DNA of 64,000 nt, taken from the IMG/VR virus record IMGVR_UViG_3300017991_000064, positions 1-64,000 of that record. One strand, given 5' to 3'. The translations under genes and the position numbers were made by a program. Position 1 is the first letter of the stretch. Each line of letters begins with the position of its first letter. Source of the DNA: a virus. This document shows, piece by piece, positions 3,389 through 64,000 of the stretch. The notes under the pieces are model-generated. The model made no database searches and was not told where the DNA came from. It saw only the letters and a list, made by a program, of their open reading frames with translations.

Positions 3389-5185
3389 TTATATTATTTG
3401 AGATTTCTTTGCATCGCGTTGTTCACGAAGTTGGCGTAATCTACCACCGTGAGAGGCAGCCTTTGCTTTCTGGTGATCATCTGCAGTTACTTCAGTAACA
3501 ACCCCCATCGCTATATATTTATCAATGAGACCCAGCTCACTCTTCTTCAAAACAAATTTCGTCTCACCTATGTATTGATCCCTACGATTCCAATGAAAGA
3601 TAACTTCCTCGATGGCAGTATCAATCTGCTTCTCCCTTTCCCTACGTTCATGTAGTTTAGATTTAGGTTTCCTAGATTCAACAGGTTCACTTCCACCCTC
3701 AGCTTCTGCCTCAGCCTTCTCCTGTTCCAATTCAGTCCTCGTCTTCTCTATGGATTTCAACAGTTCATCAAAACCTGGAATCTTAAGGAACATAGCATTG
3801 ATGACCTTAATGAGATCAACCTTCTTTACCTCAGCAGTTTCTTCATCTACCAATCCCAACTCTGTAAGGAGTCCTAATGTTGATGATGCTGCTTCTAGAG
3901 AACTAATAAGTGCAGACTTCCTTTCCTCATCCTCAGCGGTAGATATGGTAGCCATCTGGATATCAAAATCATTTCTGAGATGACCTTTACCAATAGCATA
4001 AAGATGGAGAACAAATAGATCACGTAGGAATTTGCGATTGCAGGATTGAACTCTTTTGACAGCCTTAGCAAATCTGATCTCTAACCTAGTAAGTGATGAT
4101 TCTCCAATACCACCAGGTAGAGTTTCTTCAAGACCTAGGAAAGCCTTCGGTGTACGAAGTGCTCCGTATAGTTTACTTCTGAAGTATTCAATGTCAACGA
4201 TTTCACGAACATCTGCTTCACCACCAAGGGTGGTTACATTGAGGTTTCCCTTCTCTTCAAAGATGGGAACAAATACCCTTCTGATCATATCGAATTGTTT
4301 CGACTGCTGATCAAAGGTTTTAGGATCATTAAGATTTATGAAGTCATCTGTAGCAAAAGCTTCTTTCATCTCTGCTACTAAATCTTTAGCGTCCGTAGGA
4401 GTTAAACCTGTACAGTTAACACCGATGACCTCTTTCATTGGTGATCGTGTAATACGTGCAATCACCATTATGATCTCGAGGAGATTCAATACTTTGTATA
4501 TCTTCCTAGCATTATCAAGAACAGATACACCATAGTCAGCCTTTACCTTGTACTTCTTTCCCCTCCAATCAAACTGCACAAAGTTCCAGTAATCTTTCTT
4601 CTTAGGTTTTGAGAATGGAAGTTTGTAGTGATAGAAGTCTCTGGCAGCATAGAACTGACCATCGTAGTGATAACCCAGAACATAGTTACCTATGGATGCT
4701 TTCGAAACATCGCCTGGATGAATTTGAGTATCGATGAATTCGATTCCTCTATTGTCATCTCCGTAAAAGATCTCAACGAACATATCCCCGTAGAGACAAC
4801 CATTATAACAAACATCTGGGAGAACTTCATATAAATTGAGGCGTCTACAGAATTGTTCAAACTCTCCACAGAGAAATTCGTTATCTGACACGATCCAAAA
4901 GGATTTGCCAGTTTCATAACTAATCTGTGTTGCTTCCTCTGCATATAACTCTAACGCTGAGGAGATAATAGAATCTTCCAACATCCTATCATACTCTTTG
5001 TAGAGGTGTTCACGTCCATACTCAATTCCAAGGTAGGACTGAACCTGTTGCATGATATTGTCAAATTTTGGAATGGACGGTGGTGGACCCTGTGGATGTT
5101 GATCCTCTTTCTTAGGAGCTCTATCCACGAACAACTTCTCTTTTAGGCCTCGGAAGAAGCCTGAAAAACCTCTACCTCTACTCAT
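3389..5185 (-). CDS. Portal vertex protein, T4 gp20-like
   Basis: A 598-residue dodecameric portal through which DNA enters the prohead and to which the tail attaches. The T4-type pattern is clear: an N-terminal basic segment, an IIS-SALELYAEEA region near residue 70, NGCLYGDMFVEIFYG near 140, and the conserved FRSKLYGALRTPKAFLGL block near residue 330 followed by LPGG. The C-terminus is a long charged helix. An ATG lies at 5200, but GAGGTG sits eight bases before the ATG at 5185 (MSRGRGF), so 5185 is the better start. The terminase is far away on the other strand at 48296. The transcript probably begins near 5595 and carries a structured leader. Confidence 0.92.
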   Translation of the reverse strand: MSRGRGFSGFFRGLKEKLFVDRAPKKEDQHPQGPPPSIPKFDNIMQQVQSYLGIEYGREHLYKEYDRMLEDSIISSALELYAEEATQISYETGKSFWIVSDNEFLCGEFEQFCRRLNLYEVLPDVCYNGCLYGDMFVEIFYGDDNRGIEFIDTQIHPGDVSKASIGNYVLGYHYDGQFYAARDFYHYKLPFSKPKKKDYWNFVQFDWRGKKYKVKADYGVSVLDNARKIYKVLNLLEIIMVIARITRSPMKEVIGVNCTGLTPTDAKDLVAEMKEAFATDDFINLNDPKTFDQQSKQFDMIRRVFVPIFEEKGNLNVTTLGGEADVREIVDIEYFRSKLYGALRTPKAFLGLEETLPGGIGESSLTRLEIRFAKAVKRVQSCNRKFLRDLFVLHLYAIGKGHLRNDFDIQMATISTAEDEERKSALISSLEAASSTLGLLTELGLVDEETAEVKKVDLIKVINAMFLKIPGFDELLKSIEKTRTELEQEKAEAEAEGGSEPVESRKPKSKLHERREREKQIDTAIEEVIFHWNRRDQYIGETKFVLKKSELGLIDKYIAMGVVTEVTADDHQKAKAASHGGRLRQLREQRDAKKSQII

Positions 5186-5266
5186 TATTTTACACCTCAA
5201 TTAATGTTCGGAAAATGTTTAATGGGGATTTAATGTGGGCGAATGCCCAATGAATGTAATGAAAGG
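5186..5266 (-). promoter_or_regulatory. Portal 5' leader between structured RNA and start codon
   Basis: No gene is visible. The stretch holds a small hairpin (GGGC GAAT GCCC near 5238-5249) and the GAGGTG ribosome site of the portal. It joins the structured RNA at 5267-5511 to the portal start. Confidence 0.5.
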
Positions 5267-5511
5267 ACCTTGTTAGTATGGAGATGTGCATAGATTTGAC
5301 CGGGGAGGTCGTCATAATTAAGGAGGTTTATGACTTATCCGGGTACTCTGGGGAATACCAGCGGGTTGGCTATTGAAGCTAAAACCTGAGGGTTAATAGC
5401 GAATGGTTGACAATGCCATGCTCAGGAGCCACCTTGAGGAATCAACCTTCAGGGAAACCGTAGCTACAACAACAGCTTATGATCTTATGCACACCTCAAT
5501 ACTAACAAGGT
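5267..5511 (-). ncRNA. Candidate structured RNA in portal leader with anti-Shine-Dalgarno loop
   Basis: A gene-free 245-base element closed by a 26-position terminal stem (5267-5292 with 5486-5511). Read on the minus strand 25 positions pair, because A84/C94 becomes a U-G wobble; on the plus strand only 24 pair. Inside are successive hairpins: 5298-5310 (GACC/GGTC), 5311-5334 (GTCATAA/TTATGAC), 5342-5359 (GGTA/TACC), 5369-5400 (GCTATT/AATAGC with inner AACC/GGTT) and 5405-5447 (GGTTGA/TCAACC with inner CTCAGG/CCTTGAG). The 5311-5334 loop on the minus strand contains ACCTCCTTA, identical to the 3' tail of 16S rRNA. It lies between a good promoter and the portal gene. It resembles no RNA family I can name, and no protein-coding explanation fits. 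Confidence 0.7.
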
Positions 5512-5594
5512 GATAGACACAGGTATAACAGAACTTCGAATGAAGAATCTGCTTATTCTGTGTTTTACTGAAATCCAATGAATCTATGGTATTA

Positions 5595-5631
5595 TCATAT
5601 ATATTATACCATATATAAAGAATGACTTAAA
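5595..5631 (-). promoter_or_regulatory. Extended -10 promoter for structured RNA and portal
   Basis: On the minus strand a TATAAT (5603-5608) is preceded by TGG, an extended -10, and by TTTAAG (5626-5631) at 17-base spacing. Transcription would start near 5596 and run into the structured RNA and the portal. The -10 lies in an AT-rich inverted repeat (GGTAT...ATACC). Confidence 0.6.
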
Positions 5632-5720
5632 CAGTTTGAAAATTACCAGGGACCGAATGGAACTATCCTATGAACACCTCCATATAAGAAATTTTTCACC
5701 AGGTACCAACTGAATTAAAA

Positions 5721-15437: not shown

Positions 15438-15707
15438 TTATTTTCTTCTTTCAAACTTACCTGGAATCTGTTCCATTCTATCCAGTACCTCCTTATCCTC
15501 CCTGAACATAGCTTTGATAAAGGCCATCTCTATCTCAGCTACCAAACTTTCATTCTCTGGTTTCAGTGGATCAAAGGTTGGGAACATAACCTTAATGGCC
15601 CCGGTTAAGTAACCCTGAAACTCTTTGTTCCCGGTGGCAGAAAGGTGAAGTGCACTGTATAGTGATTCCAACCTTTCCCTGTCAATGGTTTGGTTTACCT
15701 TGGGCAT
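15438..15707 (-). CDS. Small helical hypothetical protein
   Basis: 89 residues, helical and acidic, first gene after the promoter at 15741-15769. The ATG at 15707 follows GGGGAGG. No family recognised. Confidence 0.65.
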   Translation of the reverse strand: MPKVNQTIDRERLESLYSALHLSATGNKEFQGYLTGAIKVMFPTFDPLKPENESLVAEIEMAFIKAMFREDKEVLDRMEQIPGKFERRK

Positions 15708-16002
15708 AGCAGTACCTCCCCGATTTGGTTTTATAGGTATATTATAATATAAAAGGGGGTTAAAGTAAACGGACCTGTTTAAGGTGGTTATTTGGCCGTA
15801 TAGGAGATTTGTTTTATCCCACCTAAGGGTTACCCTAGCTGTTGGGTTAAAAGTTCCATAGCAGCTAAATTTGAGCTCCTAGCGGGTGGGATATGACTAG
15901 GCTATATGTATATGATAGAGTATAGGGGAATACAGAATGGTATATACACAAAAGAAGGGGTGATAATGTACCACCCCTAAGCATTACCCTCTGTGTTTGA
16001 AT
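15708..16002. other. Gene-free promoter region
   Basis: About 295 bases with no credible gene on either strand. It holds the leftward promoter at 15741-15769, and several inverted-repeat fragments (for example ATCCCACC near 15817 and GGGTGGGAT near 15884). A terminator for the gene at 16003 is possible but I see no stem followed by a clear T-run. Confidence 0.5.
15741..15769 (-). promoter_or_regulatory. Sigma70-like promoter for 15707 operon
   Basis: On the minus strand TTTACT (15764-15769) and a perfect TATAAT (15741-15746) are separated by exactly 17 bases. The -10 lies 34 bases before the ATG at 15707. It would drive the leftward run of small genes. Confidence 0.7.
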
Positions 16003-34152: not shown

Positions 34153-36933
34153 ATGATTAAATACAAATTCAAAAAATCCATCTGCAAGCAGTGCTTAATG
34201 TATCCTGCTAACTTCAATCCTATTCGTGGTATAGGAAATCCTAAAGCAGACATCATGTTCATTGCTGAAACTCCCTCGAACGATGCGAAAGCTGTGAATG
34301 AAATCTTTTCGGGTCGTTCTTCACAATTCTTATTTGAGATCCTCTCAGAACTCTTCTCTATCCCTGTGGAGGATATCAAATCAAAACATTCTCCCTTCTA
34401 CTTCACAAACATCGTCAAATGTTATATTCCCAACAAATATGATGTTGAGGACAAAAAACTAAAAGACATTGCTGTCTCTTGTAGCGATTACGCTAAACAA
34501 GAGATAGAAGAAGTTGATCCTAAGATAGTTGTTCTACTAGGAAGAGCTGCTCTTAATGGTATCCTAGGTGGGGCTACAAAGGTAGAATCAAAAAGGGGTA
34601 GGATTCATACACAAGAGATCAACGAGAAAGAGTATAAGTTTGTACCTGTTTTTCACCAAAGCTACGTATTCAGAAACCCAAATGTACTTCAGATGTTTAT
34701 CAAAGATCTCGAGTTAATGAAGAGGTATGTAGATGGTGATCTGGAAAAAGAGGAATTAGATTACACCATGGTAGATAATAAGAAATCGTTTAACAAGATG
34801 ATAACCTTTCTTGAAAGAAAACAACCAGATCAATCATCCTGGGATGTAGAAACTAGTTCATTTGATTTTGCATCTGGGAAAGCTGTAATGCTCTTGGGTA
34901 TGTCATTCTACAATAGCGAACTGGATGAAGAGTATAATTTCATGCTTGACATAAAACGTTTTAAGTTTCGAAAAGGGTTAACAGCAGATAGAATCATACC
35001 AGTACTGTTAGATAGCATGGGTGGATACTGTAAGTATCTAATAGGTCAAAATTTTAAGTATGATATGAAACACCTCTTCAATTATGGTTTCCCCAAACGT
35101 GGACTCAAAAGCAAAATTTTAGATACTATGATAATGTCATATGTCCTGAATGAAGAAAGATTCGGAAGGTATGGTAAGCATTCATTAGAGAACCTATTGG
35201 GTTTCTACTTTCCAGAGGCGTTAGAATACAAGGTTTCCAAAGGTGAGGAAGCTAAAGAAGATCGAAAGAAACGAAATAAAGAACTCAGCAAGGAAGAGAA
35301 GAAACAAAAACAAAAGGAATCTAAGGTTGATGTGGATAAGGGAAACCCCTTTGATGACCCTGATTACTGTATGAACGATGCTATCTACACTGGACGGATA
35401 GCTAGGATCTTCCTTAAGGAGTTCGAAGAAAAGAAGAACAAGAAGCTACGAAGATTATACTTCAAACTATACGAACCGGCGTTGAAATTAATGACTCGGG
35501 TAGAGTATCGTGGAGCGAAGATAAATGTAAACTATCTCTTAGAATTAGATGAAAAGATGAGTGCAGAAAGAGATGACTACGAAAAGAAACTCCGAGGTTA
35601 CCTTTATCGTATTTTTGATGATAAGAAGTATGCTAAAGGAATTAACTTCAATTCGTCTCCACAGAAAAAGGTCCTCTGCTTTGAGAAGCTGAAGCTACCA
35701 ATAGTTCATTATACGAAGAGTAAGAAAAAAGGTGGAGGAAAGAAAAAGAAAAGTCCTAGTACAGGAAAGGATGCATTTGAAAAATGGGGTATCCTTCTGA
35801 ACAAGGGAGAGCTATTTCAGTGTTGTGATAGAAAGTATACGAAGGACCAAAGGAAGTATACAGCAAAGTTCATCAAGCTCTATAACAAATATAGTAGAGT
35901 TAAACATCTCCACAAGAACTTCGTCATTGGCATTCAGGTTCTTCTCGACAAGAATAATAGAATACATGGAACCTTCAAGCTCGTTGGAACAGTAACTGGG
36001 AGATTGAGTTCTGCTAGGCCAAATCTACAGAATATTCCCAGGACCACAACCAATAGCGAAATAAAGAAGTTATTCATTCCCAGTCATAAAAAATGGTACA
36101 TTGTTGAGGTGGACTACTCTCAAGCTGAATTAAGGGTCCTTGCCCACTTCTCTCAATCCAAAACTTTGATCGAAGCTTTCACACAGGGATTCGACATCCA
36201 TCTATTCGTAGCTTCAGAGATGTATGGTGTTCCATTTAAGGAAGCTGAAAAGATCTACTATAATAAAGACCTGGAAGGAACTGATTTACATATCAAATGG
36301 AAGAAGTGGAGAAAGAGAGCTAAAACGATAGTTTTCGGTATTGTCTATGGAGTTGGTCCAGATACACTAGCTGAGAACCTATCTGATCCTGATGTTGGAG
36401 AAATTGTTTCCAGAGAGGAAGCTATTGAGTTCATTGAGATGTTCTACAGAAAATTCCCTGAGATCAGAGATTACATTGAGCGTTGTATTAAATTTGTACG
36501 ACGACATAAGTACATCGATAATGTTCTTGGGAGACGAAGACACCTACCAAACATTAATAGTGAAGCTAAGAACCTAGCTGCCGAATCTGAAAGAAAAGCT
36601 GTTAATTCTCCGATACAGGCTACCGCCAGTGACTTTGCTTTGTTCTCAGCGGTCCTGATCGATAAGTATATTCATCGGTATAAACTAAGAGCCCATGAGT
36701 TTACTACCGTCCATGACTCTATCCTGTATGATGTACACCTTGATGACATCCTTAAGCTACATAAGATTGTAGATCATGTAATGCCTAATCCGCCACTTAA
36801 GAAATACTTTAAGTCAGAATTTACAGTTCCGCTAGACTATGGTATTGAGGTGGGCCCAGTCTGGGGAGAGATGTACGGTGATCTGAAGAAGTTTGTAGCT
36901 AAGGAAAAACAGAAATATAAAGAGATAGCATAG
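34153..36933 (+). CDS. DNA polymerase I family fused to family 4-like uracil-DNA glycosylase
   Basis: 926 residues. Residues 1-~195 resemble a 4Fe-4S uracil-DNA glycosylase: CKQC at 11-14, IMFIAETPS, FTNIVKC, a fourth Cys (VSC), VVLLGRAAL and VFHQSYVFR. A 3'-5' exonuclease follows (WDVETSS, GQNFKYDMKHL, YCMNDA). Then come family A polymerase motifs A (VEVDYSQAELRVLAHF), B (RAKTIVFGIVYGVG) and C (TTVHDSILYD). It replicates the phage DNA; the glycosylase part may read or remove uracil ahead of synthesis. I recall UDG-like N-termini on SPO1-type polymerases but could not check. No intron or intein is seen. Confidence 0.9.
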   Translation: MIKYKFKKSICKQCLMYPANFNPIRGIGNPKADIMFIAETPSNDAKAVNEIFSGRSSQFLFEILSELFSIPVEDIKSKHSPFYFTNIVKCYIPNKYDVEDKKLKDIAVSCSDYAKQEIEEVDPKIVVLLGRAALNGILGGATKVESKRGRIHTQEINEKEYKFVPVFHQSYVFRNPNVLQMFIKDLELMKRYVDGDLEKEELDYTMVDNKKSFNKMITFLERKQPDQSSWDVETSSFDFASGKAVMLLGMSFYNSELDEEYNFMLDIKRFKFRKGLTADRIIPVLLDSMGGYCKYLIGQNFKYDMKHLFNYGFPKRGLKSKILDTMIMSYVLNEERFGRYGKHSLENLLGFYFPEALEYKVSKGEEAKEDRKKRNKELSKEEKKQKQKESKVDVDKGNPFDDPDYCMNDAIYTGRIARIFLKEFEEKKNKKLRRLYFKLYEPALKLMTRVEYRGAKINVNYLLELDEKMSAERDDYEKKLRGYLYRIFDDKKYAKGINFNSSPQKKVLCFEKLKLPIVHYTKSKKKGGGKKKKSPSTGKDAFEKWGILLNKGELFQCCDRKYTKDQRKYTAKFIKLYNKYSRVKHLHKNFVIGIQVLLDKNNRIHGTFKLVGTVTGRLSSARPNLQNIPRTTTNSEIKKLFIPSHKKWYIVEVDYSQAELRVLAHFSQSKTLIEAFTQGFDIHLFVASEMYGVPFKEAEKIYYNKDLEGTDLHIKWKKWRKRAKTIVFGIVYGVGPDTLAENLSDPDVGEIVSREEAIEFIEMFYRKFPEIRDYIERCIKFVRRHKYIDNVLGRRRHLPNINSEAKNLAAESERKAVNSPIQATASDFALFSAVLIDKYIHRYKLRAHEFTTVHDSILYDVHLDDILKLHKIVDHVMPNPPLKKYFKSEFTVPLDYGIEVGPVWGEMYGDLKKFVAKEKQKYKEIA

Positions 36934-48295: not shown

Positions 48296-50185
48296 ATGTA
48301 TATAATCAAGAGTAAGAAGGGTTACCAAAGATTGGTCCCTAATGTAGAAATTGAAGAATACTTCTCGGAAGATTATTTCATAGGTAGAAGTACCAAACAA
48401 GGGAAACATATATTTCCTGTTTGGCGAAAAGCTTTGAAAACTATCTTCAGTAAAAAGCGTGGTAAAGACCTCATTGAGGTTATTGCTACTGGAGCTATTG
48501 GTTCGGGGAAGTCCACTCTAGCTATAATAGGATCATCTTTCATACTCTACAAACTTTTATTATTAGAAGATCCACATGATACCTTTGATATGATCAGAGG
48601 TCAACCTATCTTCTACCTATTCTTCAATGTAACAATGGATGCCAGTGAAGAAGGAAACATTCTGGCCCTAGGGAACCTTATACATGAAGCTCCTGTTTTT
48701 AGGGATCTAGGGGTTAGGTTTTCGAAGAATACGAAATACCCAAAACCCATCTTCCCTAAGAATATTCTACTAGCTCCCGGTTCTATGTTTGCTAAAGGTT
48801 TCGGGGCTGTTGGTAAGAATGTCATTAGCGGAATGATGGATGAGGTGAATGAATCTGATACAGACAAGAAACAAAGAAAGGCTCTCTTCACACAGAAGCG
48901 GGCATTGAAAATGTATAAAGCTATCATACGGAGAATGAAATCAAGATTTTTTGATGACCCTGATCAACCCTTCCTTAGGTACATTAAGCTCTTTCTCATT
49001 TCATCCAGACAAGAGAAAGACAATTTCCTTGAGGATTATATCGAGAAGGTAAAAGATAAGAAACATGTTATCGTTTTTGATTTCCCAGTTTGGGTAGCAA
49101 GATCCAAAAAGAAACTATGTGGGGATACATTCCATGTAGCAGTTTCTCCATTCATGGATCCCATGATAGTAAAGAAGAAGAAAGAAATTCCTGATGTTGA
49201 TGGAATCAAATCATATGAAATCCCTGTAGAGTATCTTCCAGCATTTGAACTAGATGCTCTATCCGCCCTTGCTGAGATAGCTGGTGTTAGTGTAAACAGG
49301 ATGAGGACCAGATTCTTTAGAAATAGAAAACTCCTCAAGGCTTCTTTCACAGAACGTCCTATCAATAGAGATATTCTAGAACTTTCTCTCTATGATGCAA
49401 TTCAGGTAGCATCATGTTTTAATATTAAGGAACTGATGAAACTCCGTGGACAAGCTATGACAGTACATATTGATGTTGGTTTGACTGGGGATAGATTGGG
49501 CATTGGTGCTGCTATGGTGGAATCATTCAAGCACCTAACTGTTTCTCCAGATGAGGAAGAGAAGTTAAGATTACTAAAAACAACTCTAGATCAAGAAAGC
49601 GATAGTCCTGTGGATGAGAAGAAACCAAATGAAGTACATGTACCTATAGTTCTAGTTCCCTTTGCTCTAGGTATTCAAGCTAAAGATGAGATTCCCCTAT
49701 TTAAGATTCGTGACTTTCTCTTCTTCCTCCGTGATGATATTGGAATACACTTCATCGAGGTAACTACTGATGGTTATCAATCTCGTGACCTACGACAGTT
49801 GTTAACAGTAGCTAATATTCCAAACAGAGAGTTATCCGTGGATAGAACGATGTCACATCATACAATCTACAGGACATGGGTCTATATGGGATTAGTAAAG
49901 AAAGTGAAGAATAGAATGCTATGGAAGGAGGAAAAAGAGTTACTAGAGTTGATGACAGATGCAAAGATTGATCATCCCGATGGAGGCAGTAAGGACCTTT
50001 CTGATGGAGTAACTGGAGCTGTAGCAAATCTTTTAATACAGAAACAGAGTAGAATGAACATGAGTCCACAGGCTAGGAAGGATCTCTACAGAATGATGCT
50101 AAACCAAGGAAGGTCAAAGACCACAGGATTGATGGATATGATGAGGCCCAAAAGGGGTGGTAACCCATTAAACTATAAAAAATAA
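48296..50185 (+). CDS. Terminase large subunit
   Basis: 629 residues. ATPase: ATGAIGSGKSTLAI (Walker A, ~63-76), VISGMMDEVNESD (Walker B, ~180). Nuclease: VHIDVGLTGDRLGIG (~386), EVTTDGYQSRDL (~486) and DGGSKDLSDGVTGAVANLL (~563) carry the RNase H-like aspartates. It drives DNA into the prohead through the portal and cuts concatemers. The portal gene is about 43 kb away on the opposite strand, an unusual separation. No small terminase subunit was recognised nearby. Confidence 0.9.
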   Translation: MYIIKSKKGYQRLVPNVEIEEYFSEDYFIGRSTKQGKHIFPVWRKALKTIFSKKRGKDLIEVIATGAIGSGKSTLAIIGSSFILYKLLLLEDPHDTFDMIRGQPIFYLFFNVTMDASEEGNILALGNLIHEAPVFRDLGVRFSKNTKYPKPIFPKNILLAPGSMFAKGFGAVGKNVISGMMDEVNESDTDKKQRKALFTQKRALKMYKAIIRRMKSRFFDDPDQPFLRYIKLFLISSRQEKDNFLEDYIEKVKDKKHVIVFDFPVWVARSKKKLCGDTFHVAVSPFMDPMIVKKKKEIPDVDGIKSYEIPVEYLPAFELDALSALAEIAGVSVNRMRTRFFRNRKLLKASFTERPINRDILELSLYDAIQVASCFNIKELMKLRGQAMTVHIDVGLTGDRLGIGAAMVESFKHLTVSPDEEEKLRLLKTTLDQESDSPVDEKKPNEVHVPIVLVPFALGIQAKDEIPLFKIRDFLFFLRDDIGIHFIEVTTDGYQSRDLRQLLTVANIPNRELSVDRTMSHHTIYRTWVYMGLVKKVKNRMLWKEEKELLELMTDAKIDHPDGGSKDLSDGVTGAVANLLIQKQSRMNMSPQARKDLYRMMLNQGRSKTTGLMDMMRPKRGGNPLNYKK

Positions 50186-57575: not shown

Positions 57576-58271
57576 TTATATTTTTATCTGCCGTTTCCTA
57601 CGCTTCTTCTTTTTTCTCTTCTTTCCAACCCCGATACCAGGTGGATCCTTGTGTACAGCATAGTAACCTAAGGCTATGGCATCTGCTGTATCATGAGGAA
57701 ATTCATCAGGGTCTATGTCATACTCTGATGAAAGGATGATCTTAACAACCTGCTTAACCATGATCTCTTTTCTGAGTTTCTTATCCCTTAACTGATACTT
57801 CTTTGATTTGGATGAAAACTCTTTGGGAATCATAGCTCCTATATGTCTACTCTTAGCTGATGGTCCTACCTTAATCAGTTTCACTCCTGGAAAGTAGAGG
57901 TGGAAGAGTGAGAAGTAGAGACCATTGAGTTCAGCTAGTTGTGAGAGAACTTTCCTACCTAAGGTATAAATGTAGTCATCAATATATACTCTTGTGATAT
58001 TAGCATAGTGCTTTTTGACTGTAGAGATCCATCGGCGAATCATTCTGATGATAATCTCAGGTGTCATTCTCGAGACTCCTAATTCAACCTCTTTATCGAT
58101 CTCTAGGTTCTCGAAATGAATTGTGTAATGATCATAGTATGGTTTACGATCTTTCTTCCGTTTCTTAAGATTCAGATAACCAAAGTCAACGATTTCCTTG
58201 GTGTCCCAATCGAATATCGCAAATCCCATGTTATTCAAACCAGTATCTACCGCTAATACTAGATTACTCAT
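57576..58271 (-). CDS. RuvC-like Holliday junction resolvase
   Basis: 231 residues. RNase H-like motifs: VLAVDTGLNNMGFAIFD (first Asp, ~8), RVYIDDYIYTLGRK (second acid, ~94) and FPHDTADAIALGYY (H-D and D, ~193). Ends in a basic tail (GKKRKKKKRRKRQIK). Resolves branched DNA before packaging. GGAGGCAAT precedes the ATG. Placed in the lysis/tail block, away from other recombination genes. Confidence 0.82.
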   Translation of the reverse strand: MSNLVLAVDTGLNNMGFAIFDWDTKEIVDFGYLNLKKRKKDRKPYYDHYTIHFENLEIDKEVELGVSRMTPEIIIRMIRRWISTVKKHYANITRVYIDDYIYTLGRKVLSQLAELNGLYFSLFHLYFPGVKLIKVGPSAKSRHIGAMIPKEFSSKSKKYQLRDKKLRKEIMVKQVVKIILSSEYDIDPDEFPHDTADAIALGYYAVHKDPPGIGVGKKRKKKKRRKRQIKI

Positions 58272-58309
58272 ATTGCCTCCGATGCTGTAATGTGGATGTA
58301 ATGATCATA

Positions 58310-58360
58310 ATAAAAAGAGAGGATACCTGCTCAAAACCAACGATTCATCACAGGTATCCA
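58310..58360 (-). terminator. Rho-independent terminator after receiver gene
   Basis: On the minus strand GGATACCTG (58351-58359) pairs perfectly with CAGGTATCC (58321-58329), followed by TCTCTTTTTATT. It would end transcripts coming from the tail fibre, coiled-coil and receiver genes before the resolvase operon. Confidence 0.85.
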
Positions 58361-58414
58361 CAATACGGTAGGTGACAAACGAACCAAACCATTGATCGGA
58401 GGCAAAACGACCAT

Positions 58415-58921
58415 TTAGATCTGTTCATCATCCGGTAGGAAAACATTTTCAATTGCTGAAATGGAGGCCTCGATTCGTGAAGCCATAGATTGGGCCTTGT
58501 CCATCATCTGTTCTCCGTTAGTGATTAGATCAAGAGCATTCATTATTCTTTTATGAACCTCACCCATATGAGCATTCTTAGGAATAATGGTAATACAATT
58601 TCTACCTCGTAGTTCCTCGAGTATGAAACTTTCTGAAACACAAGTGTAAATAACAACTGGGGTGGTTACTCCGGAGTCACGAAGTTCAATGAGAAAATCC
58701 AAGCCAGCTCTACTGTTACCATTGATTCGGATATCGAGCACCAGAAGATCATGTGTCTGAACTTTCATACACTCTCTTGCAGTGAGAACATCCATTGCCC
58801 AATCTACCTGGAGCTTTGCATAATCATCTGGTACTATTTCCTCCAGATATCTTGTCCAGATTCTTCTCATAATGTGTTCATCTTCCATGAATAGGATACG
58901 ATATTTTCCATCCTTTGTCAT
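58415..58921 (-). CDS. CheY-like response regulator receiver
   Basis: 168 residues. All receiver residues are present: acidic pocket Glu13/Asp14, phosphoacceptor Asp63 (LLVLDIRING), Thr93 (VVIYTCVSE) and Lys115 (IIPKNAH). No output domain follows, only a ~40-residue helical tail. It could take phosphate from a host histidine kinase or titrate a host pathway. AAGGGGTG precedes the ATG. Lies between the fibre-associated membrane protein and a terminator. Receivers are rare in phages. Confidence 0.85.
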   Translation of the reverse strand: MTKDGKYRILFMEDEHIMRRIWTRYLEEIVPDDYAKLQVDWAMDVLTARECMKVQTHDLLVLDIRINGNSRAGLDFLIELRDSGVTTPVVIYTCVSESFILEELRGRNCITIIPKNAHMGEVHKRIMNALDLITNGEQMMDKAQSMASRIEASISAIENVFLPDDEQI

Positions 58922-59455: not shown

Positions 59456-62400
59456 TTACGGGTTACTTGCTTCTGTTGCCGTCCATGTTATTTCTCTTGA
59501 ACCACCAGTATTGTCAACAACATAGTAAATGAACCCATCTTTATCAGCTTCCTGAACCCCAAATGAGCCACCTATATACATCCATGACATACCACTGTAA
59601 TATGATTTGGGAGTAATGGTAACTATAACATCATCACTACCAAATGCAGTGCTAAAAGAAACTTCTGTTGTTGTGTATGTACCCATACTGGCATTTATCT
59701 CATCTGTTCCACTCTTGACAGTAGGAATCACAAGTTCAACATCATCAATCTTGTATACACCAGTAATGTTGATATTACCGTCCACATCAAGAACTTCAGC
59801 AGGTGCAAGATCATTGATACCAACCTTACCCCCCATGATTGCCATAGTGCTTGCTTGTGTAAGTGTCGGTGTTGTATTATAGTCTAAACTGAAACCAATT
59901 GAATACTGAGCATCTGAATCCGTAGTACCTACAATTATTCCGGCTCCTAATGCTATAGAATTTGCACTTCTAGCCGTGTTAGATGCTCCCAATGCTACAG
60001 AATTTGCACCAGAAGCAGTTGACCCGCTTCCAATTGAAAGTGAATAAGCACCAGTAGCATCAGCCTGATTGCCAACAGCAAATGAGTATATGCCAGATGC
60101 TTTTGTGTTATATCCCAACGCATTGGAAAGAAAGCCGATATTGGCATCATCCCAGTCTGTAGATGAACTACGACCTGCTCTAAAAGCTCCTTTTGACTTA
60201 TCAAAGAAAAATCTATAGTCATGGTCAGAATCACCATCATCGGCAAGTTGCGGTGAACCCCATACAAAATCATCAGTTGAATATGTTACTTCACTGGAGT
60301 TTGCCCTGACAACAGTACCGGCTTTTTCCCAGTATGAAGTTCCACCGCCACCGGCAGCAAGTTCAGCAAGGGTTTTATCCCCTGTAACTCCGTCTGATAG
60401 TACAAGATTTCCACTGCCATCTTGGAATAGGTCAAATGAGCCAGAACCACCATGAAATGCCGTTGCTTCAATAGTTCCTGAAACTTCCAGTGTTCCAGAT
60501 GGGGGGTTGATTGTATCTGACCTCAAGGCTGTTGCTTCAACAGTACCACCTACAGAAAGCTCATATGAGGGAGTCAGGTCTGCAATACCAACCTTACCTC
60601 TCATAATTGCTAAAGTATTGTCCTGAGAAAGAGTTGAAGATGAAGCAGCAAGATTGATAAGCATTGAGTTATCTGCACTACTATCAACAGTAGCATTACA
60701 ACCCAAAGCAACACCATTACCCCCGTTGGCATTATTACCATAACCAAGAGCAACACCGCCCCAACCTGCAACCTCACACTGATAACCGATAGCAGTTGCA
60801 TAATTGTTTGTAGCCTGTGACTGATACCCCATAGCTACAGCAGCATCAGCGGTAGCATCAGAAGCATATCCAGCGGCAAAAGCATAACTGTCACTGGCAG
60901 CACAATCATCACCGAAAGCAGCCGACCATGATCCTCTGTTAGCATCATCCCAATTCACAGAGTTACAGTACCCAGCCCGGAAAGCAGCTTTACTATCATC
61001 AAAGAAAAACCGCCTGTCTTTGGTTGCGTGTATCTGTCTGTTAAGTGTTGGAGAACCAAACACAAAGTCATTATTGTAGGTTGTATCTGATTCCCTGACC
61101 ACATCTGAATCTTCCTCAAAGACACCACCTGCTACTGCTTCACTTGTCCATTCTCCAGAAGCATCATCATAGGTTAAAACATCATTATCAGAAGGATTTG
61201 ATACATCTACATCAGATAGATCATCAAGTGTTACTGATGAAAGTATTGTATTAACCTCATCCGTTAAACCTACATACTGACCCTCAAGATAAACAGCTTT
61301 CAAAGTACCTTCGACTTCGACTGATCCGGCATTAAGATAAAGTTTTTGATTTGCTACACTATTATCAAAAATACCGTAAATCAATGAAGTATCACGAGCG
61401 TTTGATTCACTATCACGAGGATAAATGTCAATAAAGAGTTTATTACTCCCCGTTTCATAATACCCTGCATCATTACCAAGAAAGATATTATTTGATCCGG
61501 TAGTGTTAGTATAACCAGCACGATAACCTAATGCTGTATTAGCATTACCAGAGGTAATATTTGTCAAGCTATTATACCCGATTGCAGTATTTTTATTACT
61601 ATTACAATCAGCTAATGCTAATGAACCTATAGCTGTATTCTCATCTCCGGTGGTCACAGTATTTAATGAGTTATAACCTACTCCAACATTACTGAACCCC
61701 TCGGTGATTTCCGTTCCAGCATAAGCACCTATTCCGGTATTATTATAGCCACTGGTAACATCTTGTAGAGTATAGCTTCCGATACCTATATTGCTCTGAC
61801 CCGTTTGAGTAAAATTACCAGCCTGAACACCAAGAAATAATGAAGACCCAGAACCTGTGTAAGTATGAAGCAATCTTTCACCATTCTGGGATATAACTCC
61901 TACATATTGCCCTGATGTAGTAGGTAAACTTGCATATCCAGTAATTTCAAGAGAATCAACCTTAACATTGCCAACATTATTATTGACAATATCATCTCCA
62001 TCAGCATCCCAATATGTAGTACCTGCTACTGCTTCACTTGTCCATTCTCCAGTTCCAGAGTCATAAACAAGAGCCTCACCGTCCTCTGGGGAAGCAACAT
62101 TGACATCACCAAGATCATTCAAGTCAAGATCAATAGCAGCAATAGCGGTTTCGATTGTGGAATCCGCTTCCGCTTTGGTATAGGTTTCTGATTCAGTGTA
62201 ATAACGATTGTCCAACTGTCCATTGTCAAGTTCCGTCTGCGTGTAAACCTCTGTAGAGTTGTAACTGTAAGAATCTATTACACCTTCAATCTCGGCATCC
62301 GTTCTGATCTTGCCATCAATGACAGCCTGAGAGTAGGTATATGCTTCGATGGTACTGTCTGTTTGAGCTTTAGTATAAGCATCAACAGCAGGAATAACCT

Positions 62401-64000
62401 CTGATGTCCACTCACCAGTTCCGCCATCATAGGTCAATACATCATTGTCACTTGGAGCAGAAACATTAACATCAGACAGTCCTGCAAGATCTTTGTTCCA
62501 AACTTCAACCGTCCACTCTCCGGGTGTATGTGCATATCTTAAATAAGCATCGTCAAAACCGGGATAAGTGCTTGCATCAACATCTGATAGATTGTCGAGT
62601 GATTGGAGTATGTAATTACCAGTTGGGATATATACTCCTGTTGTTGAGTCCTTTTGATACCAACCTTCTGCCATTGGTACACCTTTTGTATCATCAGTGA
62701 ACAATACTTGACTATTATCAGTAGTAATAGTTTCATCCCATGATGCACCATTATATTCATAGATATTTCCAGCAGTCCAACCGTTACCTGCAACTAAACA
62801 AGCATAACGATCACCTGTGGATGGTGCAATAGGAAGAATACCAGCAGCAACCCAAGCATTGAGGACATCAGGATATATAATTTGCTGTTCATCTTTGGTG
62901 TATACCTCAGTAGAGTTGTAGCTGTAGGAATCAATGATAGTTTCAACTTCTGATGTATTTGTACCACTTGCTATAGCTTCACTTGTCCATTCACCGGAAG
63001 CAGTATCATAAGTAAGAACATCATTATCACTGGGGGCAGAAACATTAACATCAGAAAGATCACCTAATGCATAGTTCGCAAGTGCAGTATCAATCTCAGA
63101 TTTACTGTATGCATAGGTTTCAATGGTGCTGTCCGTTTCTGCTTTTGTATAGGTGGTTGTCGTATCTGCCTTATCATCCAGCAAATTATCAGTTTCTGTT
63201 TGCGTGTAGACCTCTGTAGAATTGTAGGAGTAGGCATCAATGATATTTTCTACAGTAGAATCTAAATCAGTAATGGTGTCAGCCTGATTTACAATACCGT
63301 CATCATTAGTATCATAAGTAGACTTCTCCATATCACCTGTACCAATAGCAGGTTTATTGGTGACATTATCCCAGTGAAGTTGTGCCTGTCCTGATGTCTG
63401 CATATTTGTCTGTGTGTAGTAATCAGCAGGGTCAATATAAGCCTCAATGGTTGAATCTGTTTCAGCCTTTGTATACACATCTGAGGCACTAGCAAAATCT
63501 GATACAGCGGAACCACTATCCTTGATATTGCCAGAGGCATCAAGAGATACAAGGTTGTCCTCTGTACCTGCTGAAACTATATCTGCTTTGTCATCCAACA
63601 GATTATCTGTTTCTGTTTCAGAATAAGCATAGGTTTCTATTGTAGAATCTGTTTCTGCTTTGGTATATACATCTGTTGCATTGGCCTTATCATCCAGTAA
63701 ATTGTCTGTTTCTGTTTGAGTATAGACATCAGCTTTAGGATAAGCATAGGCTTCAACTGTTGCATCTACCTCAACCTTAGTGTAAGTAGTAATTACATCA
63801 GCTTTATCATCCAACAGATTATTGGTTTCAGTCTGAGTATAATAATCTGAGGGATCAATGTAAGCCTCGATTGTAGCATCTACCTGAGTTCTAGTATACC
63901 CCTCTGCCGTATCCAAGAAGTTTTCATCTACTTCTGGAGCCAACTTGTCCAGTGTAACTGCTGTATCCTGAATAGAATCAGTTACAACTGTATCTTCTGG
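59456..64000 (-). CDS. Tail fibre with YadA-like head repeats, 5' end outside window
   Basis: About 1,515 codons are visible and the frame is open at the right edge; the TTG at 63943 is only an internal Leu. The first ~600 residues are repeats of YTKAETDSTIEAY/YTQTETDNLLDDKAD type, typical of trimeric fibre shafts. L-x-DLSDVNVSAPSDNDVLTYD units recur at least four times. YadA-like head repeats (SVALG, NTAIG, AIGYQS) lie in several blocks from about 61800 down to 59950. The C-terminal ~110 residues form a beta-rich tip ending WTATEASNP, likely the receptor-binding part. No S74 chaperone motif is obvious. Confidence 0.85.
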   Translation of the reverse strand, partial: PEDTVVTDSIQDTAVTLDKLAPEVDENFLDTAEGYTRTQVDATIEAYIDPSDYYTQTETNNLLDDKADVITTYTKVEVDATVEAYAYPKADVYTQTETDNLLDDKANATDVYTKAETDSTIETYAYSETETDNLLDDKADIVSAGTEDNLVSLDASGNIKDSGSAVSDFASASDVYTKAETDSTIEAYIDPADYYTQTNMQTSGQAQLHWDNVTNKPAIGTGDMEKSTYDTNDDGIVNQADTITDLDSTVENIIDAYSYNSTEVYTQTETDNLLDDKADTTTTYTKAETDSTIETYAYSKSEIDTALANYALGDLSDVNVSAPSDNDVLTYDTASGEWTSEAIASGTNTSEVETIIDSYSYNSTEVYTKDEQQIIYPDVLNAWVAAGILPIAPSTGDRYACLVAGNGWTAGNIYEYNGASWDETITTDNSQVLFTDDTKGVPMAEGWYQKDSTTGVYIPTGNYILQSLDNLSDVDASTYPGFDDAYLRYAHTPGEWTVEVWNKDLAGLSDVNVSAPSDNDVLTYDGGTGEWTSEVIPAVDAYTKAQTDSTIEAYTYSQAVIDGKIRTDAEIEGVIDSYSYNSTEVYTQTELDNGQLDNRYYTESETYTKAEADSTIETAIAAIDLDLNDLGDVNVASPEDGEALVYDSGTGEWTSEAVAGTTYWDADGDDIVNNNVGNVKVDSLEITGYASLPTTSGQYVGVISQNGERLLHTYTGSGSSLFLGVQAGNFTQTGQSNIGIGSYTLQDVTSGYNNTGIGAYAGTEITEGFSNVGVGYNSLNTVTTGDENTAIGSLALADCNSNKNTAIGYNSLTNITSGNANTALGYRAGYTNTTGSNNIFLGNDAGYYETGSNKLFIDIYPRDSESNARDTSLIYGIFDNSVANQKLYLNAGSVEVEGTLKAVYLEGQYVGLTDEVNTILSSVTLDDLSDVDVSNPSDNDVLTYDDASGEWTSEAVAGGVFEEDSDVVRESDTTYNNDFVFGSPTLNRQIHATKDRRFFFDDSKAAFRAGYCNSVNWDDANRGSWSAAFGDDCAASDSYAFAAGYASDATADAAVAMGYQSQATNNYATAIGYQCEVAGWGGVALGYGNNANGGNGVALGCNATVDSSADNSMLINLAASSSTLSQDNTLAIMRGKVGIADLTPSYELSVGGTVEATALRSDTINPPSGTLEVSGTIEATAFHGGSGSFDLFQDGSGNLVLSDGVTGDKTLAELAAGGGGTSYWEKAGTVVRANSSEVTYSTDDFVWGSPQLADDGDSDHDYRFFFDKSKGAFRAGRSSSTDWDDANIGFLSNALGYNTKASGIYSFAVGNQADATGAYSLSIGSGSTASGANSVALGASNTARSANSIALGAGIIVGTTDSDAQYSIGFSLDYNTTPTLTQASTMAIMGGKVGINDLAPAEVLDVDGNINITGVYKIDDVELVIPTVKSGTDEINASMGTYTTTEVSFSTAFGSDDVIVTITPKSYYSGMSWMYIGGSFGVQEADKDGFIYYVVDNTGGSREITWTATEASNP

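Follow-up and report, generated by a model that had tools for sequence, protein, structure and literature searches.

The staphylococcal RNAIII and Rsa small RNAs carry UCCC loops that pair with Shine-Dalgarno (SD) sequences (PMC3861533), and in phages P1 and P7, probable loop sequences of the c4 antisense RNA pair with the ant message around its ribosome site (PMC12197685). ROOL and GOLLD are often found near tRNA islands, and GOLLD is often longer than 800 nt (PMC12286853). We compared these RNAs, and cis-acting leaders with a sequestered ribosome site, with a 245-nt element on the minus strand of a tailed phage (virus record of 106,874 nt), at positions 5267–5511 of the 64,000-nt stretch of DNA that was analysed (the window). 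The element shares with RNAIII and Rsa a C-rich hairpin loop that is complementary to SD sequences and accessible by prediction, but has no sequence or Rfam relation to them and would lie inside a phage leader. With c4 it has in common a link to a ribosome site in a phage RNA, again without sequence relation in Rfam and DNA searches; its copy resembling a ribosome-binding site (RBS) is located in the terminal stem, and the gene under control would be that of the portal protein. Like ROOL and GOLLD, it is a predicted structured phage RNA with no assigned function in a gene-free stretch, whereas those RNAs are larger and often close to tRNAs, and the element has no Rfam match and lies 2.5 kb from the nearest tRNA. 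Pairing within the leader could cover or free the SD as in cis-acting leaders, with the difference that the element does not pair with the portal site in the equilibrium fold. By these analogies, the element appears most like the cis-acting leaders or, if it were cut out, like c4 and the small RNAs with C-rich loops.

The phage has genes for a tail sheath, a tail tube and a major capsid protein, and appears to be isolated and otherwise unknown, its best portal matches being about 30% identical. The portal gene (3389–5185, minus strand, ATG at 5185) matches the portal families phrog_213 (8.5e-36) and phrog_1497, and its product is T4/SP-15-like, with 29% identity to the portal of Bacillus phage SP-15. 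The family A DNA polymerase gene is found at 34153–36933, and the terminase gene (48296–50185, plus strand) lies 43 kb from the portal gene. The N-terminal part of the terminase large subunit is 39% identical to a stretch of Listeria phage LIS04 that is annotated as an intein-region protein. The genes around the element are all on the minus strand, and the element, gene-free as first described, with no gene of at least 60 aa found in it, lies in a gene-free gap of 520 nt that is unusual for this genome. Two shorter frames were judged to be no genes, namely a minus-strand reading frame of 41 aa at 5190–5315 that lacks an SD, and a plus-strand frame of 19 codons that follows AAGGAGG at a spacing of 3 nt.

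The element is bounded by the 26-nt terminal stem that the sequence-only reading had described. The 5′ arm (5486–5511, minus strand) and the 3′ arm (5267–5292) form Watson-Crick pairs at 24 of 26 positions with 193 nt between them, and no other inverted repeat with 17 or more matched bases within 600 nt was found in the scanned 106,874-nt record. One of the two mismatches becomes a G18-U228 pair on the minus strand, as had been noted, which is weak evidence taken alone. The 5′ arm includes ATTGAGGTGT, identical over its 10 nt to the portal RBS (5192–5201, minus strand); the 10-mer occurs elsewhere in the record only at 5491–5500, within this arm. A third, partial copy of the 5′ arm, TATGGAGGTGTTCATAGGAT, is located upstream of the candidate promoter at 5665–5684 on the minus strand (17/20 identical, 85%), and its pairing with the 3′ arm amounts to −19.1 kcal/mol. 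This copy is RBS-like and has no gene behind it. An inverted repeat without function, left in the spacer by chance or as a relic, possibly of duplicated ribosome-site segments, would account for three related RBS-like segments (5192–5201, 5491–5500 and 5665–5684) and would be in line with the lack of relatives that could show conservation. Nevertheless, pairing of 24/26 positions over 193 nt occurs just once in 107 kb, the 520-nt gap is unusual here, and this reading is considered rather unlikely.

The predicted fold of the whole element has an energy of −90.6 kcal/mol on the minus strand (z −8.0) and −91.4 kcal/mol on the plus strand (z −6.9), and on neither strand did any of the 200 shuffles reach it. 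In a coarse genome-wide folding scan, its GC-adjusted energy was the lowest among the approximately 5,200 windows of the record, the frame of the element having been picked post hoc. The interior without the terminal stem gives z-scores of only −2.4 (minus) and −1.7 (plus), so the bulk of the folding signal comes from the stem. The description as highly structured thus holds for the element as a whole, but the interior is weak alone and the structure is mainly one long stem. Similarly, several of the five proposed internal hairpins are predicted, but the fold consists of a long arm and three hairpins, not clearly five. On the minus strand these are a long imperfect arm at 5369–5473 with an ill-defined apical part (pair probabilities 0.2–0.8), a hairpin with a loop of 4 at 5339–5364 (pair probability 0.9), a 7-bp hairpin at 5311–5334 with the 10-nt loop ACCUCCUUAA, and a 4-bp hairpin, GACC-UCCCC-GGUC, at 5298–5310, taken from the pair probabilities. 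A pseudoknot between AGCTA (5377) and TAGCT (5461), which had been suggested, is unnecessary, because the two segments pair as an ordinary nested helix inside the long arm. One more leader hairpin (5518–5563, minus strand, pair probabilities 0.6–0.9) is predicted between the candidate promoter and the element as first delimited; the stretch that holds it, 5512–5597, has a z-score of −2.7.

The dominance of the arms over the weak interior also suits a DNA-level element, that is, a site for protein binding or recombination, or one like a miniature transposon, 245 bp long and ending in 26-bp inverted repeats, whose RNA fold would be incidental. The strands fold nearly alike (−90.6 versus −91.4 kcal/mol), and the partial arm copy at 5665–5684 is in agreement with such a site. 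However, target-site duplication is not visible at the ends, a second copy is absent from the record, none of the 28 loci that have the first 16–17 end bases carries a paired inverted copy, and the coding strand gives the better-defined fold, so that this explanation appears somewhat unlikely. Terminal inverted repeats as in a miniature inverted-repeat transposable element are present (26 nt, 24 matched); a miniature transposon is nevertheless not supported, as the exact-pattern searches made revealed no target-site duplication, no further copies and no same-ended parent. A retron was rejected, with no reverse transcriptase in the record (RVT_1 unmatched, positive controls matched).

Searches for homologues returned only the element itself. 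As had been anticipated, it is unlike any Rfam family, with no match in release 15 at the gathering threshold; the best match below the threshold was to a lncRNA model at an E-value of 0.43, that is, chance. A DNA similarity search of phages and plasmids yielded no homologue of the element even at an E-value of 10. A covariance model (R1), built from the single element sequence, was used to search 43 viral records, five phage genomes, the loci found by portal and pattern searches, six bacterial genomes as well as 299 Bacillota genomes; the element was the sole match across these sets. Two candidates were discarded, one (L147/L158/L159, E-value 0.044) consisting of a single 74-nt stretch against a model of 245 positions, and the other (L172) matching just in the 18 bases that had been searched for. 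The search for relatives of the phage itself used the portal and capsid proteins and a codon pattern, custom-made for the portal motif PKAFLG[LF]EE.LPG, which was found in IMG/VR in SP-15, L012 and L110 only and in none of the GTDB genomes. In SP-15, LIS04 and L012, the portal gene is preceded by the terminase gene, not by an RNA. The element is at present a single-sequence prediction.

Transcription of the element from the minus strand, as originally proposed, agrees with the better definition of the fold on that strand. The mean pair probability is 0.82 on the minus and 0.59 on the plus strand (0.79 versus 0.47 for the interior), and the ensemble diversity is 40 versus 59. The promoter that had been reported, TTTAAG-17-TGG-TATAAT, is present in the sequence on the minus strand at 5603–5631, with the extended −10 TGG and an expected start near 5597, and TATAAT with its TG extension occupies 5603–5611; as a class, though, generic promoters were found at chance level in a scan (16 versus 13.0 expected). 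The more specific arrangement GTTTA-spacer-TATAATA occurs twice in the window, where 0.13 is expected, both times on the minus strand and upstream of genes, the second site (15740–15770) preceding the gene at 15438–15707. The candidate promoter thus draws its support only from strand, position and this second site. The promoter-like sequence GTTTA-spacer-TATAATATA is common to the two intergenic regions, at 5602–5632 and 15740–15770 on the minus strand.

No terminator-like site was found between the element and the portal ATG at 5185, and the order and strand of candidate promoter, element and portal gene fit a cis-acting leader RNA. Since no terminator precedes the portal ATG, the element is most likely a structured leader module of a portal transcript that would start near 5597. 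Overall, the stem is real and unusual, and a portal leader RNA is the probable identity of the element. An independent noncoding RNA that has a different function, for instance a packaging RNA kept near the portal gene for that reason, would match the closed, multi-branched predicted shape and the adjoining packaging gene. Such an RNA would have no independent terminator here, and to our knowledge packaging RNA occurs only in small phi29-type phages, whereas this phage has about 107 kb, a tail-sheath gene, a T4-like portal and a terminase gene 43 kb off; we regard this alternative as very unlikely.

As a portal leader, the element suggests a mechanism of control. An anti-anti-site, an anti-site and a site follow one another in known leader switches, and the two arms of the element and the portal RBS have the same layout. 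Because the 5′ arm holds the copy of the portal RBS, the 3′ arm, which is able to pair with the RBS itself, may act as an anti-RBS. The portal message would then carry the element in its 5′ leader as a self-contained structured module, transcribed on the minus strand from the candidate host-type promoter near 5603–5631, with the 26-nt stem closing the domain. In the closed domain the 3′ arm would be retained and the portal ribosome site available; where the 5′ part is absent or the stem is opened, as by an internal start, a nuclease cut or a bound protein, the 3′ arm could cover the portal site. The module would thereby act in cis to restrict how much portal protein is made or when.

This proposal builds on computed features, namely the stem, the fold prediction, the position, the repeated 10-mer and the pairing energies, and we hold it tentatively, at somewhat less than an even chance. 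The 3′ arm pairs far more strongly with the 5′ arm (−37.1 kcal/mol) than with the portal leader (about −9.5 kcal/mol), and the switch would therefore need an active trigger. The presence of the core makes no difference to the predicted folding of the portal RBS, which together with the closed stem favoured at equilibrium likewise implies that regulation requires a trigger. The shared RBS-like 10-mer may be coincidence, because GAGG-type sites are common in this genome. Transcription, folding in the cell and the switching with its trigger are the parts of the cis model that we infer. The portal product is required in small, exact numbers. If real, the element would represent an RNA leader linked to a portal gene and would show that a phage can set the portal level by means of RNA.

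The hairpin at 5311–5334 had originally drawn attention for its loop, ACCTCCTTAA (5318–5327), which is present and predicted to be unpaired (0.98–1.0). Nine of its bases equal the 3′ end of 16S rRNA of the E. coli type, and an anti-SD role had been proposed on this basis. This role is not supported, as a 9-base match to the E. coli-type tail is found in 1.3% of the 245-nt strand windows of this genome (2.2% for the Bacillus-type tail), and a near-identical loop, ACCTCCTTA, occurs in another hairpin at position 82568, on the antisense strand of an unrelated gene. Nor does the suggested pairing with the portal ribosome site hold up, which is limited to 5 bp (−6.9 kcal/mol), whereas many other phage RBSs reach −12 to −14 kcal/mol. 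The loop is thus not tailored to the portal site; its apparent mimicry of 16S rRNA is fairly likely a coincidence.

Its accessibility bears, nonetheless, on a reading in which the domain is cut from the leader and acts in trans as a small RNA, the C-rich loop pairing with SDs of the host or the phage. The 26-nt stem could be an RNase III site, and the loop has a predicted pairing energy of −13.5 kcal/mol with a canonical SD and of −11 kcal/mol or better with the RBS regions of 43 of the 131 predicted phage genes, with a precedent in the UCCC loops of staphylococcal RNAIII (PMC3861533). This reading is unlikely, given the background of 16S-tail matches, the common occurrence of CCTCC hairpins, the fact that a general anti-SD would also affect the phage's own genes, and the lack of any sign of processing or independent termination. 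It is highly improbable that the domain, once cut from the portal message, captures SDs with a rigid 16S-tail loop and so redirects or damps late translation.

A second leader of the phage shows strong predicted structure. The leader of the RuvC-like resolvase gene (gene 57576–58271, leader 58262–58424, minus strand) folds with a z-score of −5.0, and TTGCCTCCGAT, just past the upstream gene, is predicted to pair with ATCGGAGGCAA, which carries the resolvase SD beside the ATG. As modelled, it would illustrate the hiding of an SD by long-range pairing more clearly than the portal element does, and the phage may, with this SD predicted to be hidden, use leader structures more than once. An unusually strong fold was also found where the tail sheath gene ends, in the stretch surrounding its 3′ end on the minus strand at 84925–85497 of the record (L005:925–1497). 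Two further minus-strand genes of the window stand out by their products, a phage-encoded protein with a response-regulator receiver domain (58415–58921; Pfam PF00072) and a very large protein that contains YadA head repeats (59456–63943) and is likely an adhesin or a tail fibre.
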